Counted from the first letter of the stretch, positions 50,405 through 56,751 are shown. The stretch is DNA of 64,000 bases from Methanomicrobium sp. W14 (GCF_017875315.1 NZ_JAGGMM010000003.1:186001-250000); one strand, 5' to 3'. The notes: generated from the letters alone by a model not told the origin. Numbers and translations: made by a program.

Positions 50405-51199
50405 ATTAACGGACAGGACAAAAAGGGTATTAAAAAAATTCTGATCGTCGAGGACGATAACCTTATTGCAGCCCTGATCAGAGATTTGCTTTCCAAAAAG
50501 CATTATGCAGTCGCAGGAAGAGTCTCCACAGGAGAAGAAGCCATAGAAATGGCGATAAAACATCTCCCGGACCTTATCCTGATGGATATACAGCTTGAGG
50601 GAAGAATAGACGGAATACTTGCGACAAAATACATAACGTCAATGTTCAAAATTCCGGTGCTTTTTGTATCAGGGGAAGAAAATGACGAGATTTTTAAAAA
50701 AGCTGCGGAATCTTCCCCTTCCGGTTTTATCATAAAGCCGTTCACCGCCAACGACATATATTCAAACATCGAGATAGCAGTAAAAAACTCACAGCTGAAA
50801 AGATCGTCCAAAGAAAGCTACGAACTTCCCGCAGTTCTTGCATACAAGTCCCTTACCGAGATGGACGCATATTTCCTCCTGGACGAGGCAGGAAGAATCA
50901 TATTCATAAACCCTTACGCAGAGCATATGATCAACCGCAAAATATGTGATGTGGCAACTGATTCCATCAACAAATACCTCCTTTTCTACGACCTGGATAC
51001 AAAACAGCCTATAAGGGACACATTCAAAAATGCAGTCCGGGAAAGCAACTTCTTCGGCAAAAAGTCCAAAATCGCCGTAAAACTTGCCAGCGGAAATTTC
51101 AGAACAGTCTTTGCAAGCTCTCTTGTGGTAAAAGACTCATTCCAGAATCCTATAGGCACGCTTTTTAAGGTTCACATGAAATCAAAGGGAGAATTGTGA
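50405..51199 (+). CDS. Response regulator: receiver domain + PAS-like domain, apparent ATT start
   Basis: 264 residues from the ATT at 50405. The receiver needs this upstream part: IKKILIVEDDNLIAALIRDL carries the acidic-pocket aspartates of CheY-like domains, followed by DLILMDIQLEGRIDG (phospho-Asp), VLFVSG and a lysine in FIIKPF. The first ATG in frame (50486) would delete the first strand and the acidic pair. No ATG, GTG or TTG precedes it back to a stop at 50369. A strong GAGGGGAG (50390-50397) sits seven bases before the ATT. The C-terminal half (about 145-260) is PAS-like (YFLLDEAGRIIFINPYAEHMI). There is no DNA-binding output and no neighbouring kinase. Confidence 0.82.
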   Translation: MNGQDKKGIKKILIVEDDNLIAALIRDLLSKKHYAVAGRVSTGEEAIEMAIKHLPDLILMDIQLEGRIDGILATKYITSMFKIPVLFVSGEENDEIFKKAAESSPSGFIIKPFTANDIYSNIEIAVKNSQLKRSSKESYELPAVLAYKSLTEMDAYFLLDEAGRIIFINPYAEHMINRKICDVATDSINKYLLFYDLDTKQPIRDTFKNAVRESNFFGKKSKIAVKLASGNFRTVFASSLVVKDSFQNPIGTLFKVHMKSKGEL

Positions 51200-51321: not shown

Positions 51322-51385
51322 CTTTAAATAGTGTCTATTTACAAATACTAGGTTGTAAACTGGTTATCAAATTCAGGTGATTCTG

Positions 51386-52264
51386 ATGAAATTAAACAGC
51401 AAAATTTCAATTATAATCCCTGTTCTCCTGATAGTCGCTGCAATTGCATTTGCGGGATGTACAGGGACGGGGACGGGAACAGCCGCACCTACGCAGACCA
51501 CAGCTCCAACAGCTTCGCCTGTGCAGACGACATCGGCAGAGCAGATAACTCTCACCGTGTTTACGGCAGCATCGCTTACAGGTGCTTTCACCGATGTCGG
51601 CGAGAAATATATGGCGGAAAACGAGAATGTAAACGTTGAAAATGTATTTGACGGGTCCCAGGCCTTAAGGACGCAGATTGAGCAGGGCGCACAGCCTGAT
51701 ATATTTGTTTCCGCAAACCAGAAGCACATGAACGCTCTCGTAGACGAGGGCTACATGGATAACGACACTGTCCAGCTTTTCCTTGAAAACTCTCTTGCAG
51801 TAATTGTGCCTGCAGACAACCCTGCAAAAATACAGAACCTTTCAGACCTTGCAAACTCCGGCGTCAAGATTGTAATGGGTACAAAGGACGTGCCTTTCGG
51901 GTCATACACGAGACAGATCCTTGGGAAGATGGCAAACAGCTCCGAATACGGCCAGGACTACGTTGATGCGGTCTACGGCAATGTAATCTCAGAAGAGACG
52001 TCGGTTTCAACGGTCGTTCCGAAGCTTCTTTTAGGCGAAGCTGACGCTGCATTCGTCTACAAATCCGATGTAAGCAAGGACTACGGCGACAAGATAATTC
52101 AGATAGAGATACCTGAAGAATACAACGTACTCGCAAAATACCCGCTTGGTATTCTTGCAGACTCTAAACAGAAGGACGAAGCCGAAGACTTTATTGAATT
52201 CGTCAGAGGCGATGAAGGCAGTGCTATTCTGAAGAGTTATGGATTCGACCCAATTCCAGAGTGA
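51386..52264 (+). CDS. modA: Molybdate/tungstate-binding lipoprotein ModA
   Basis: 292 residues. A signal peptide with a lipobox (AFAGC) near residue 22-26 and a Thr-rich linker precede the binding protein. LTVFTAASLTGAFTDVGEKY is the ModA N-terminal oxyanion motif, followed by VFDGSQALRTQIEQGAQPDIFVSAN and LLGEADAAFVYKSD. The start is ATG 51386, preceded by GGTGA at a good distance; the ORF also begins earlier at a GTG inside that site. It delivers oxyanion to ModB. Whether molybdate or tungstate is the real ligand cannot be decided. Confidence 0.9.
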   Translation: MKLNSKISIIIPVLLIVAAIAFAGCTGTGTGTAAPTQTTAPTASPVQTTSAEQITLTVFTAASLTGAFTDVGEKYMAENENVNVENVFDGSQALRTQIEQGAQPDIFVSANQKHMNALVDEGYMDNDTVQLFLENSLAVIVPADNPAKIQNLSDLANSGVKIVMGTKDVPFGSYTRQILGKMANSSEYGQDYVDAVYGNVISEETSVSTVVPKLLLGEADAAFVYKSDVSKDYGDKIIQIEIPEEYNVLAKYPLGILADSKQKDEAEDFIEFVRGDEGSAILKSYGFDPIPE

Positions 52265-53078
52265 AAAAAAAGCCTCCGGTATAGACAAAAGAAAGATTAA
52301 AAGACAGGGAGTAACATTCCTTGTCTTTGCTCTTTTAACGCTGTTTCTTATCTTTATACTTCTTCCCGTCGCGTCGCTGTTTCTGAAGATAACGCCGGAG
52401 GGATTTATTGAAGCTTTGCAGCAGCCTGCAGTACTCGATGCACTCTCTCTCTCCCTTACAACAGCAGGAATAAGCACAGTCATCGTAATTCTTCTCGGAA
52501 CACCCCTCTCATACATAAACGCAAGGACAAACTACAGGGGAAAAAATATCGTCGACACGTTAACCGACCTTCCGATAGTGCTTCCGCCGGCAGTCGCGGG
52601 TCTTGCCCTTCTCATGGCATTCGGAAGAAAAGGCGTCCTCGGTGTATACCTTGATGCATTCGGCATCCAGATAGCTTTCACAACTCTTGCAGTAATCTTT
52701 GCACAGGTTTTTGTCGCATCGCCTTTCTACATAAGGCAGGCAAGGGCAAGCTTCGAAGCAGTGGACATAATCTATGAAAACGCTGCAAAAACCCTCGGTG
52801 CATCAAAATTTGAAGTCCTTACAAAGGTTACAATTCCAATTGCGTGGGCTGGACTTGTATCCGGGTCTATTCTCTCTTTTGCAAGGGCTCTGGGAGAGTT
52901 CGGTGCAACCATAATGTTTGCTGGAAATTATCAGGGAAGAACGCAGACGATGCCTCTTGCAATATATACGACGATGCAGAGTAGTATGGATGAAGCTATA
53001 AGTCTCTCGATAATTCTGGTTGCAATATCCTTTGCAGTCATCCTTACAGTAAAATACGTTACAAAAAGAGGTGTCTGA
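52239..53078 (+). CDS. modB: Molybdate/tungstate ABC permease ModB
   Basis: 279 residues with about six membrane helices and the permease EAA loop (YENAAKTLGASKFEVLTKVTIP). It has LGTPLSYINARTNYRG and ALGEFGATIMFAGNYQGRTQTMPLAIY, characteristic of ModB/CysT-type permeases for oxyanions. Its ATG at 52239 lies within the last 26 bases of modA with GAAGAG just upstream, indicating coupling. The stop is one base into the modC ATG (TGATG). Confidence 0.92.
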   Translation: MDSTQFQSEKKASGIDKRKIKRQGVTFLVFALLTLFLIFILLPVASLFLKITPEGFIEALQQPAVLDALSLSLTTAGISTVIVILLGTPLSYINARTNYRGKNIVDTLTDLPIVLPPAVAGLALLMAFGRKGVLGVYLDAFGIQIAFTTLAVIFAQVFVASPFYIRQARASFEAVDIIYENAAKTLGASKFEVLTKVTIPIAWAGLVSGSILSFARALGEFGATIMFAGNYQGRTQTMPLAIYTTMQSSMDEAISLSIILVAISFAVILTVKYVTKRGV

Positions 53079-54145
53079 TGCTTTCTGTCGATGTAAATAT
53101 GAAACTGCGTGATTTCCGTCTGGACGTCAGCTTCAGCGTGTCCGACGGTGAAACACTGGTATTAATAGGTGAGAACGGAGCAGGCAAATCCACAATTTTA
53201 AATATTATATCGGGTCTTCTCACGCCGGAATCAGGAAAAATTGCACTCGGAGACGACATTTACTATTCATCAGAGAAGAAAATTTTCGTTCCCCCGGACG
53301 AAAGGAGCACAGGCCACCTGTTCCAGTCATATGCACTGTTTCCCCACCTGTCGGTGTTTGACAACATCGCATTCGGCCTCAGGCTCAAAAACGTCCCGAA
53401 AAACGAGATTGAAATGCTTGTGAACGAGCAGATGGAGACTATGATGATATCCGAGTACTCGCCGGTCAACGTAAGAAACCTCTCCGGGGGACAGAGGCAG
53501 AGAGTGGCACTTGCGAGGGCTCTTGTTTTAAAGCCCGGTATTCTCCTCCTTGACGAGCCTCTCGCAGCAGTCGACGTAAGAATGCAGGCTGAAATGAGAC
53601 GCGAACTTCACCACAGGATTAAAGCGGAGCATATACCGTGCATAGTGGTTACACATACGCTTTCGGACGCAATCGAGCTCGGAGACAAGGTTGCAATCCT
53701 TGAGAAGGGAAAGATAATACAGATGGGAAAACCTGAGGAAGTCTTCAAAAAACCGGCATCAGGGTTTGTCGCACAGTTTACCGGGATGGAGAACATATTC
53801 AGAGGATACGCGGAAAGAACAGGGCCCTCCGAAGACACAGAAATTCATGTAGGAGATGTTGTCCTTCATGCCATAACAGATATAACGGGGGATGTCATCG
53901 CGGGAATCAGGGCTGAGGAGATATTGTTTTCAACAGGACCTGTCAAATCTTCGGCAAGAAACATACTTAAAGGAACCGTATCAGAAATACACTGGAACGG
54001 TCCCCTTTCAAGAGTTATCGTGGACGCCGGAATACAGTTTACTGGCGTCATGACGCATAAAAGCATTGAGGACTTAAACCTTCATACAGGCCAGGAAATA
54101 TACGTAATATTCAAAGCTCCCGCAATCAACGTGTTCCCCTCCTGA
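53078..54145 (+). CDS. modC: Molybdate/tungstate ABC ATP-binding protein ModC
   Basis: 355 residues. Walker A GENGAGKST near 33-41, signature LSGGQRQRVALARAL, Walker B GILLLDEPLAAVD and switch His in VTHTLSD. The C-terminal about 120 residues contain a MOP-like regulatory domain (LKGTVSEIHWNGPLSRVIVDAG) that could bind oxyanion and inhibit transport. The ATG overlaps the modB stop by one base. With modAB it forms a complete transporter. Confidence 0.92.
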   Translation: MLSVDVNMKLRDFRLDVSFSVSDGETLVLIGENGAGKSTILNIISGLLTPESGKIALGDDIYYSSEKKIFVPPDERSTGHLFQSYALFPHLSVFDNIAFGLRLKNVPKNEIEMLVNEQMETMMISEYSPVNVRNLSGGQRQRVALARALVLKPGILLLDEPLAAVDVRMQAEMRRELHHRIKAEHIPCIVVTHTLSDAIELGDKVAILEKGKIIQMGKPEEVFKKPASGFVAQFTGMENIFRGYAERTGPSEDTEIHVGDVVLHAITDITGDVIAGIRAEEILFSTGPVKSSARNILKGTVSEIHWNGPLSRVIVDAGIQFTGVMTHKSIEDLNLHTGQEIYVIFKAPAINVFPS

Positions 54146-54307
54146 CTGCTATAAAAAGAAAAAAGACAGCATTTTCAAAATAGAAATAATAACAGGCTTA
54201 ATATTTTACTTTTTTTCTTTTCAACCAATTTTCAGGTAAAAATGAAATGATTTTTCTTTTTTCAGGCGACAGTTAATAGATTGTATTGAATATTGCCAGG
54301 TTAACCG

Positions 54308-54997
54308 GTGAAAATGGTTACCCAAAAAAGAGATGAGATAAATATGCAGGGAAAGAAAAAATTCGGAAAAAAATCCGCAAACCAGATGAACGACATTTCA
54401 AAGACCGTGTTTGCACCGGTATACCCGGCAATCGCGAAAAACCTTGTCGAAGAGCTGAAGATAAAAGAAGGCATATGCATCGACCTCGGAAGCGGCCCGG
54501 GCTCGCTTGCAATTGCAGTCGCAAAGATAACCGACCTTAATGTAATCTCTTTTGATAATTCACGCGAGATGCAGAGAAAAGCGGAAGAGAACATCAAAAA
54601 TGCAGGACTTTCCGGCAAAATCAGCATTCTGCACGGCGATGTCCACAAAATACCGCTTGACAACGATTACGCAGACCTTATCATAAGCAGGGGGTCGATG
54701 TTTTTCTGGGAAGACATAAACAAAGCCTTCAGGGAAATTTACAGGGTATTAAAGCCCGGCGGAAAGACTTACATCGGCGGGGGGTTCGGCTCAGAGGAGA
54801 TATTTGAAAACGTCTGCCGCGAGATGGACAGGTTAAACCCGGAATGGAGCGATTTAAGGAAGAAAAATCTCTCGGAAGAAAACAAAAAGCGCTTTGAGAC
54901 GGCACTTGAAAACATCGGTGTTACATATGAAATAAACACCAAAGAAAACGGCTTCTGGATTATTATCTCAAAAGAGACGCCAGGGGCCCTGCCATGA
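54308..54997 (+). CDS. SAM-dependent methyltransferase
   Basis: 229 residues if the GTG at 54308 is used; ATG 54314 or 54344 (MQGKKKFGKKS) is possible too. The class I fold is clear: CIDLGSGPGSLAIAV (motif I), ISFDNSREM, ILHGDVHKIPL, DLIISRGSMFFWED and REIYRVLKPGGK. It overlaps the radical SAM gene by four bases, so both are coupled. The combination with the radical SAM/periplasmic-binding fusion and modABC upstream suggests a shared, undefined cofactor or metal-related pathway. The gene's precise substrate is unknown. Confidence 0.85.
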   Translation: MKMVTQKRDEINMQGKKKFGKKSANQMNDISKTVFAPVYPAIAKNLVEELKIKEGICIDLGSGPGSLAIAVAKITDLNVISFDNSREMQRKAEENIKNAGLSGKISILHGDVHKIPLDNDYADLIISRGSMFFWEDINKAFREIYRVLKPGGKTYIGGGFGSEEIFENVCREMDRLNPEWSDLRKKNLSEENKKRFETALENIGVTYEINTKENGFWIIISKETPGALP

Positions 54998-56751
54998 AAT
55001 GTGAAATCTGTGAAAACCTTTGTGAAATTCCAAAAGATAAAAGCGGAAAATGCAGGATGTACACAAATTCAGGCGGAAATATTGTAGAAAAATTTCCGGA
55101 CGCGTACTTAACGCTCCTCCCGGTAACGATTGAAACCGTGCCCTTTGTCCACTTCGCACCGAAATCGAAGGTACTTCAGGTGAGCACATCAGGGTGCAAC
55201 TTTTCGTGCCGGGGCTGCATCTCCGAGATGCTTGCCTCACACCCGAAGGCGGTATCAGGCGCCCTTAAGCGGGTGCCCCCGGAAAAAGTCGTTTCAATGG
55301 CGCTCAAAGAGGAGTGCAAAGGTATCGTATTCTGCTTAAACGACCCCATAGTCTCCTATTATACATTTACGGGACTTGCAAAAGAGGCAAAAAAGTCAGG
55401 ACTTTTTGTCGGGTGCTCGACAAACGGGTATTTCACCGAAAAAGCACTTGAAAAACTAATCCCCCTGCTTGATTTCGTAAACGTAGGTATAAAGGGGTCA
55501 TCCGATGAGAGATACAAAGAATGCGGTGTGAAGTCTTCCGGACCTGTATTCAGAAACATCAGGCTTTTGAAAGAAGCGGGTGTCCACGTCGAGGTATCAT
55601 CGATGTACATAAACGGCTCGGAAGACGAGGTTATCAGTGCCGCAGAAAAGGTATCTGAAATATCAAAGGAGATTCCGGTTCAGGTCATGAGATTCGTTCC
55701 GTTCGGCGATGCACAGCCCGGACTTGAACCGACAATAAAGAAGGCAGAAGATATAACCGAACGGATAAGAGGAATTGTCAACTACGCATACCTTTTCAAC
55801 TCGCCGGGAACTGAATATTTAAACACTGTCTGCCCTAAATGCGGCAGGACAATCATCAAAAGGGAATTTTACGGGCCCATGGGATGCCGGGTCTCGGATG
55901 CAGCAAAAAACGCGATATGTAAATGCGGGTTTAGGGCACCGCTAAAAGGTGGAATCTCAGAATCCCAGTATACCGAATACGGGATGCTCGGAGGCTACAG
56001 GACTACAAGAGCTATTGAGATGGCACATGCCGTCCTTGTTGCACTCGGCGTTAATGACGATGAAAAACTCGGTCAGATTCTCGGAGAAATAATCAAAGAA
56101 GACTTTATCCGGGGTCTTCACGACCGTGTACAGGGCATAGACTCATGGATTGGCCTCATAGAAGAACTTTCCAGGCGTTCAGGGAAGGTGAAGAAAGGTG
56201 AAGAACTCATAGACCACATAAAAACCCGCGTCGACTATATAGAATCAGAGAGCAAAAAGTCCGGTTCAAGGCCCTCCGTATATTACTCGATGGGATACCC
56301 GTTATTCGCCCTAAACGCGGAAAGGTTTGAGACAAACCTTGTGGAAACGGCAGGGGGCAGGTGCGTAAACAAGACGATAAAAAGAAAGGGCAAGCCCGGA
56401 GTCAACATATCGGCTGACGAACTAAACAGTATGAACCCTGAAAAGATATTCATATCAGGATTTCTGAGTTCTCCTGCATCCGACTTTATCGACTACTGCA
56501 AAAAGCACAACATCGCAGTCGAAGCGGTAAAATCAGGAAGTGTCTACAACGTCCCGGCAGGGTGGGACTTCGGGAGCCCGAGATGGGTTCTGGGGCTTAT
56601 GTACATAGCAAACAAAATTCATCCTGAAATTTTCTCGTTTGACCTTAAATACGAGCAGCAGGAATTCTACAAAAAGTTTTACGGAATAGAAACAGGAGAA
56701 ATCGTCCGGAACAGGGACTTCTCATCTCCGTCCGTCGGCCGGACCGGTTAA
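54994..56751 (+). CDS. Radical SAM protein fused to a BtuF-like metal/cofactor-binding domain
   Basis: 585 residues. The N-terminus has a cysteine set (CEICENLCEIPKDKSGKC), followed by the radical SAM cluster motif CNFSCRGC and GIVFCLNDP, as in PFL-activase/AmmeMemoRadiSam-like enzymes. A further group (VCPKCGRT, GCRVSD, CKCGF) at about 287-310 may bind Zn or Fe-S. The C-terminal half (about 340-570) matches periplasmic-binding-protein-type domains (VNISADELNSMNPEKIFISG; VKSGSVYNVPAGWDFGSPRW; LMYIANKIHPEIF), typical of BtuF/FepB-like proteins, but there is no signal peptide, so it is cytosolic. Its substrate could be a metal or corrinoid/cofactor. The overlap with the methyltransferase is four bases (ATGA). 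Confidence 0.85.
   Translation: MKCEICENLCEIPKDKSGKCRMYTNSGGNIVEKFPDAYLTLLPVTIETVPFVHFAPKSKVLQVSTSGCNFSCRGCISEMLASHPKAVSGALKRVPPEKVVSMALKEECKGIVFCLNDPIVSYYTFTGLAKEAKKSGLFVGCSTNGYFTEKALEKLIPLLDFVNVGIKGSSDERYKECGVKSSGPVFRNIRLLKEAGVHVEVSSMYINGSEDEVISAAEKVSEISKEIPVQVMRFVPFGDAQPGLEPTIKKAEDITERIRGIVNYAYLFNSPGTEYLNTVCPKCGRTIIKREFYGPMGCRVSDAAKNAICKCGFRAPLKGGISESQYTEYGMLGGYRTTRAIEMAHAVLVALGVNDDEKLGQILGEIIKEDFIRGLHDRVQGIDSWIGLIEELSRRSGKVKKGEELIDHIKTRVDYIESESKKSGSRPSVYYSMGYPLFALNAERFETNLVETAGGRCVNKTIKRKGKPGVNISADELNSMNPEKIFISGFLSSPASDFIDYCKKHNIAVEAVKSGSVYNVPAGWDFGSPRWVLGLMYIANKIHPEIFSFDLKYEQQEFYKKFYGIETGEIVRNRDFSSPSVGRTG

Follow-up and report, generated by a model that had tools for sequence, protein, structure and literature searches.

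We analyzed a gene cluster in a 64,000-nucleotide stretch of DNA (the window) from Methanomicrobium sp. W14 (GCF_017875315.1 NZ_JAGGMM010000003.1:186001-250000) and found that its last gene encodes a fusion of a radical S-adenosylmethionine (SAM) enzyme with half of a class III binding protein, and that this fusion is a widespread enzyme of methanogens and anaerobic bacteria. Because the fusion gene adjoins importers of metal complexes and, repeatedly, molybdenum (Mo) or vanadium (V) genes, our results suggest that the protein acts on scarce metals once these have been taken up, either releasing or preparing them. The reading that we favor, with a confidence that stops just short of even, is that the enzyme works in the cytosol, where it processes a complex of Mo, V or possibly tungsten (W) that a type II importer has brought in.

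The N-terminal portion of the fusion carries both hallmarks of the radical SAM superfamily, a match to the Radical_SAM domain (PF04055, residues 64-212; 57.2 bits against a Pfam cut-off of 29.5) and a CX3CX2C motif. Residues 1-311 match the AmmeMemoRadiSam model TIGR04337 with 122.5 bits, under its cut-off of 220, and the module is, as judged from its sequence, of the AmmeMemoRadiSam type. A preliminary description of this locus had placed a Cys-rich middle between a radical SAM core and a binding domain. The Cys-rich segment does exist (C280, C283, C309 and C311), but it forms the end part of the radical SAM module rather than a separate region. We assigned both this motif and the N-terminal four-Cys motif to the module because stand-alone AmmeMemoRadiSam-type proteins keep them, with C3/C6/C10/C20 and C280/C283/C311 each retained in 20/20 of these proteins and C309 unaligned there. 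The second motif may form a zinc-ribbon-like site or hold an auxiliary cluster. Neither AMMECR1 nor Memo was seen among the scanned neighbors in the window or the recognized conserved neighbors, which were not exhaustively scanned for these two families. The same genome also encodes a separate stand-alone relative (C1:103750).

The C-terminal portion matches the Peripla_BP_2 domain (PF01497, residues 383-521) with 28.8 bits against a Pfam cut-off of 27.5, and the fold of residues 341-571 matches those of 4hn9 (Z 21.3) and MolA (3psa; Z 18.4), so that the predicted structure bears out the fusion of a class III binding-protein fold to the enzyme. However, the profile alignment of the fusion to linked secreted binding proteins spans only positions 145-367 of 379, and DSSP analysis of the AlphaFold2 (AF2) model (predicted local distance difference test [pLDDT] 92.5; predicted template-modeling score [pTM] 0.91) showed the stretch from residue 304 to residue 427, where the N-lobe sheet would be expected, to be free of strands. 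We conclude from these two results that the fusion holds the connecting helix and the C-lobe only, which rules out a fusion to a full binding protein. The BtuF/FepB-type domain of the preliminary description was thus correct in family and fold but not in extent, and the idea that this domain holds the substrate in a complete clamp was not upheld, as a half domain lacks the two-lobed cleft. The radical SAM module may occupy the place of the lost N-lobe. Inspection of the N-terminus (MKCEICENLC) agreed that there is no signal peptide, as no hydrophobic stretch was present, and the fusion protein is predicted to be cytosolic.

A contig scan of genomes identified 79 fusion loci, which were distributed among Methanomicrobiales, Methanosarcinales, Methanolliviera, Thermodesulfobacteriota, Bacillota, Deferribacterota, Chlorobiota, Chromatiaceae and others; neighbor counts were made over 88 loci, and motif and control comparisons over 63 distinct fusions. 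Within the sampled phylum, 61/391 genomes contained a match at E<=1e-90, two of which were to unfused radical SAM proteins only. The fusion tree was well resolved in parts, with two main branches visible. In the literature library that was searched there was no work on the fusion, and MMP1179 was mentioned in one unrelated methyltransferase paper only. In three genomes (G031, G012 and G019) the fusion genes (L050, L044 and L051) contained in-frame stops or frameshifts, reflecting either lineage loss of the fusion or assembly errors.

The most frequent neighbors of the fusion were a methyltransferase (54 of the 88 loci), a secreted class III binding protein (38) and a FecCD permease (37). Relative to 60 random regions from 12 related genomes, all of them archaeal, these genes were strongly enriched near the 63 fusions (methyltransferase 40 v 1, class III binding protein 33 v 1, FecCD permease 27 v 1). 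The four-base overlap between methyltransferase and fusion genes that had been described in the window (54994-54997) was confirmed, and it recurred in 23/55 of the methyltransferase-fusion pairs. In Methanosarcina, one operon encodes in turn the binding protein, methyltransferase, fusion, permease and ATPase, with few-base overlaps or gaps at the junctions. Unfused radical SAM forms are found in operons of this type as well (L147, L148 and L052); in L147 the order is two binding proteins, radical SAM protein, a protein of family c68, methyltransferase, FecCD permease and ATPase. In diderm bacteria, a TonB protein (L118) or TonB-dependent receptors (L121 and L104) are encoded close by, which by comparison with known TonB systems suggests that the cargo is a chelate rather than a free oxyanion. 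The conserved importer is of the FecCD/BtuCD kind, accompanied by a secreted class III binding protein, and not modABC. The best solved-structure match of the linked permeases was MolB (256-263 bits), and one linked binding protein matched MolA (98 bits); both belong to MolBCA (HI1470-1472), a type II molybdate importer (PMC4031551). A methyltransferase homolog near another fusion (L092) matches the solved structure 3dlc with 180 bits.

Several loci depart from this arrangement. In L113 and L117 (Syntrophomonadaceae) the methyltransferase-fusion pair stands beside an SsuABC-like importer, and in L104 (Thiobaca) the fusion stands beside a PhnD-type importer, in place of FecCD. The c68 proteins (L077, L078:5148-6329, L079:7300-8472, L147, L148 and L052) are about 390 aa long, have no Pfam match and are encoded directly after the unfused radical SAM relative in importer operons; the AF2 model of c68 (pLDDT 51.5) was too low in confidence to assign a fold.

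The closeness of the window copy to modABC had been taken as a hint of pterin-, metal- or corrinoid-related chemistry. We ruled out modABC as a conserved partner, as the window fusion is the only member of its four-member clade (support 100/100) to have it; the neighborhood check showed that G004, Methanogenium marinum and Methanoculleus keep the methyltransferase and the fusion without modABC. Because these closest orthologs lack modABC, its adjacency in the window is lineage-specific. The hint itself survived in another form, since Mo-cofactor and Mo/V-nitrogenase genes lie near members of the family far above background. A modA, modB, Mop, FmdE, MoeA or nif gene was found within 8 kb of 17/63 fusions but only 2/60 control regions (P=2e-4, a value that is only a guide, as the sequences are related; the controls are archaeal only). 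One locus (L082) was counted on a Mop match alone, which can stem from the TOBE domain of ModC, and without it the count is 16. For archaeal fusions alone the figure was 14/46 (P=1e-4). In distance counts over 77 fusions in 59 genomes, uncorrected for relatedness, 7 fusions had modB at 12 kb or less, where 1.7 were expected (P=0.0016), and 8 had FmdE at 8 kb or less, where 1.2 were expected; both linkages were significant, whereas that to moeA taken alone was not (2 seen, 1.35 expected). Most FmdE homologs are reported beside metal-ion transporters (PMC2954224). Thus the fusion of a radical SAM enzyme to a binding module and the link to metals of the Mo/W type both stood up in the preliminary interpretation, but the modABC partnership and the complete binding domain did not.

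Individual loci illustrate this linkage. The Methanomicrobium genome has three copies of the fusion, of which the first is the window copy beside modABC, the second (C3:94896) adjoins two moeA genes (PRK14498-type, 545 and 429 bits), and the third (C1:498648) is found some 6 kb downstream of nifHDKEN, whose nifD scored over its cut-off. In Methanosarcinaceae UBA470, a secreted protein (L111:5156-7231) that combines a ModA domain (218 bits, cut-off 62.5) with a class III binding protein is encoded upstream of the methyltransferase-fusion pair, and the Desulfocucumis locus holds nifD, DUF364, importer, fusion, MocA-like and modABC genes together. A separate observation concerns L150 (G345), where two tandem fusions, each with its own binding protein, are flanked by a gene for formylmethanofuran dehydrogenase subunit B (TIGR03129, 624 bits) and by FmdE, DUF364, modABC and Mop.

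The linkage was most regular in Methanosarcina, where six genomes have a second fusion gene. In 6/6 of these, the second fusion is divergent from an alternative nitrogenase locus, 888-944 bp away from its nifH-type gene. The operon order in five of the six is H-I1-I2-D-G-K-E, and the M. spelaei operon was assigned to vanadium nitrogenase (VNFD 1008 against 823, vnfG 176 against 142). In the sixth genome (G329) the H gene is separated from the vnf genes by an Fe-only nitrogenase operon, and on its other flank the second fusion has a class III importer. Among 31 Methanosarcina genomes, vnfG was over its cut-off in exactly the six two-fusion genomes, so that the second fusion was present in 6/6 genomes with vnfG and 0/25 without it; it was absent from two genomes with the Fe-only type G gene alone. 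A supposed NifH/NifD-like pair in the Methanosarcina loci proved to be S-layer and carbon-nitrogen hydrolase genes.

The domain make-up, the half binding protein, the tie between fusion and methyltransferase genes and the linkages to the importer and, recurrently, to Mo/V genes are established by these data; for the ligand, the reaction, the faces that bind and the order of steps, we infer the following scheme. A FecCD/BtuCD-kind ATP-binding cassette importer with its secreted class III binding protein would bring a metal complex, most often of a group 5/6 metal (Mo, V or possibly W), into the anaerobic cell, where the fusion would bind the complex or its ligand, with the C-lobe supplying half of the binding cleft. 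The radical SAM module would stand at the position of the lost N-lobe, and the C-lobe may face the SAM site. Reductive or radical SAM attack could then alter the ligand and so free the metal or recast it for insertion into a cofactor, while the translationally coupled methyltransferase might cap or alter the same ligand by methylation; the freed metal would pass to Mo/V cofactor assembly. We regard as distinctly more doubtful a specific version in which anaerobes have a dedicated system for complexes of Mo, V and perhaps W (metallophores or thiometalates) and the fusion forms its cytosolic half, with the radical SAM enzyme replacing one binding-protein lobe and thereby placing binding and ligand chemistry in one cleft.

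Several observations weigh against the processing of imported Mo or V complexes. No Mo or V gene was found within 8 kb of 46/63 fusions, and the Mo genes that were found are clustered in some lineages. Co-occurrence with vnf may partly be co-inheritance of neighbors; because adjacent genes may be inherited together, this linkage shows a cassette and not a mechanism. An unlinked FecCD permease of this genome (L134) also matched MolB best, and after this control we dropped MolB likeness as proof of molybdate cargo; another unlinked permease (L133) was nearer to heme/B12 permeases than to MolB. Finally, CobN and ChlID genes of this genome lie beside an importer of that type, which makes a tetrapyrrole or an Fe, Co or Ni chelate a possible cargo.

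The direct neighbors moeA, nifEN, vnfDGKEN, fmdB and FmdE, together with the NifB-like fold similarity of the radical SAM core (Z about 17), could instead be explained if the fusion were a cofactor-assembly helper, in which the half binding protein is an intracellular carrier that hands molybdate, vanadate or a Mo/V complex to NifEN/VnfEN or MoeA with the radical SAM enzyme and methyltransferase making changes to the cofactor or its organic portion. We consider this unlikely, as importer genes rather than cofactor genes are the commonest neighbors, nitrogenase genes are missing from the surroundings of the fusion in many of its carriers, and the NifB resemblance is that of the general radical SAM barrel.

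A still less likely explanation is that the cargo is an iron siderophore, heme, a corrinoid or a nickel or cobalt chelate, which is opened or demetallated in the cytosol much as HmuW/ChuW act on heme. Importers with class III binding proteins and FecCD permeases usually carry Fe-siderophores, heme or B12, the CobN and ChlID genes and the TonB receptors in L104 and L121 fit such a cargo, and a heme-uptake operon that encodes a radical SAM enzyme sets a precedent (PMC10404700). However, enrichment of Mo/V genes is not expected for such cargo, no cobalamin or other riboswitch was found at 17 bacterial loci, and the module resembles AmmeMemoRadiSam and pyruvate formate-lyase (PFL)-activating enzymes, with no HemN-type family match in Pfam or NCBIfam at E<=0.1 (the absence of a match being no proof). 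Two large importer clusters on contig C3 of genome G000 (106-125 kb and 467-486 kb; L144 and L145) contain several class III binding proteins and methyltransferases, along with an SPFH protein, DUF364, a CobW-like GTPase, CobN plus ChlID, and FmdE.

It is improbable that the radical SAM enzyme and methyltransferase synthesize a secreted metallophore that the importer then retrieves: the two are a common biosynthetic pair and O-methyltransferase-like genes occur in several loci, but no nonribosomal peptide synthetase, ligase or export genes were among the conserved neighbors at the 88 loci, and a ligand-binding lobe better fits recognition of an existing ligand. Least probable of all is modification of a protein of the cell (the importer or a metalloenzyme, for example), with the half binding protein as docking module, for although the core resembles activating enzymes (PFL-activating enzyme) and AmmeMemoRadiSam proteins, no glycyl-radical or peptide substrate gene was conserved nearby at the 88 loci.

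All five genes of the preliminary description were present in the window at 51386-56751 (Table 1). The start of modA is an ATG at 51386, with an alternative GTG at 51377. The best NCBIfam matches of the modC-type ATPase were WtpC (350 bits) and ModC (215 bits), both under cut-off. The T-runs of the spacer that precedes the methyltransferase gene possibly mark an end of transcription, and because of this spacer it is uncertain whether modA through the fusion are transcribed as one unit. At 50486-51199 there is a gene for a receiver-PAS protein whose receiver domain starts upstream of the first in-frame ATG/GTG/TTG, an arrangement that points to an uncommon start codon (ATT or ATA, for instance).

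Table 1. Positions in the window of the genes of the cluster and of the parts of the fusion protein.
Feature	Position	Strand	Basis
modA, molybdate/oxyanion-binding lipoprotein	51386..52264	+	TIGR01256, 156 bits (cut-off 62.5)
modB permease	52239..53078	+	TIGR02141, 232 bits (cut-off 182.6)
modC-type ATPase with TOBE domain	53078..54145	+	PF00005 and PF03459
Spacer between modC and methyltransferase, 162 bp with T-runs	54146..54307	+	Sequence
Class I SAM-dependent methyltransferase (UbiE/ArsM-like)	54308..54997	+	PF08241, 75 bits
Fusion of radical SAM enzyme and half class III binding protein, 585 aa	54994..56751	+	Pfam and fold search
N-terminal four-Cys motif, C3-x2-C6-x3-C10-x9-C20	55000..55053	+	Invariant in fusions
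Radical SAM core, residues about 59-268	55168..55797	+	PF04055; fold Z 20.3 to PFL-activating enzyme 3c8f
CX3CX2C (C68, C72, C75), [4Fe-4S]-SAM motif	55195..55218	+	Invariant in 63 fusions
Second four-Cys motif, C280/C283/C309/C311	55831..55926	+	Invariant in 63 fusions; weak Zn_ribbon match
Half class III binding protein, residues 341-571 (strand-free helices 336-420, C-lobe from about 426)	56014..56706	+	Fold search, profile alignment, DSSP

Molybdate is converted abiotically to thiomolybdate under methanogen culture conditions in sulfidic medium (PMC10390477), so special handling of Mo would be useful there. The fusion bears on how methanogens and other anaerobes obtain Mo and V in sulfidic water, and the vnf-linked copy in Methanosarcina makes its function testable in a genetically tractable host. 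To our knowledge, no dedicated enzyme is known for the acquisition of these metals by anaerobes in such water.

Among known systems, the AmmeMemoRadiSam radical SAM enzymes (TIGR04337) share with the fusion the N-terminal four-Cys motif, the CX3CX2C core and the C-terminal Cys motif, with about 27-33% identity over fusion residues 1-317. The fusion differs from them in its TIGR04337 score under cut-off and in about 270 extra residues that include the half binding protein. The anaerobic heme-degrading radical SAM methyltransferases HmuW/ChuW/HutW (PMC10404700, PMC10035031) parallel the proposed role, being radical SAM enzymes that are encoded in chelate-import operons and liberate the metal, but they appear to belong to another radical SAM family, methylate with the same polypeptide, have no binding-protein lobe and act on heme. 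MolBCA gave the best permease match of the fusion-linked importers and a match to a linked binding protein, as described above, but an unlinked permease of this genome matched MolB best as well. We know of no radical SAM or methyltransferase partner of MolBCA. The class III binding proteins (4hn9, CeuE, MolA, YiuA and BtuF) share with the fusion the C-lobe and connecting helix, with Z values up to that of 4hn9; unlike them, the fusion has no N-lobe sheet and no export signal and is joined to an enzyme, and it offers an example of enzyme building in which the substrate-binding lobe of an importer has been grafted onto a radical SAM core.

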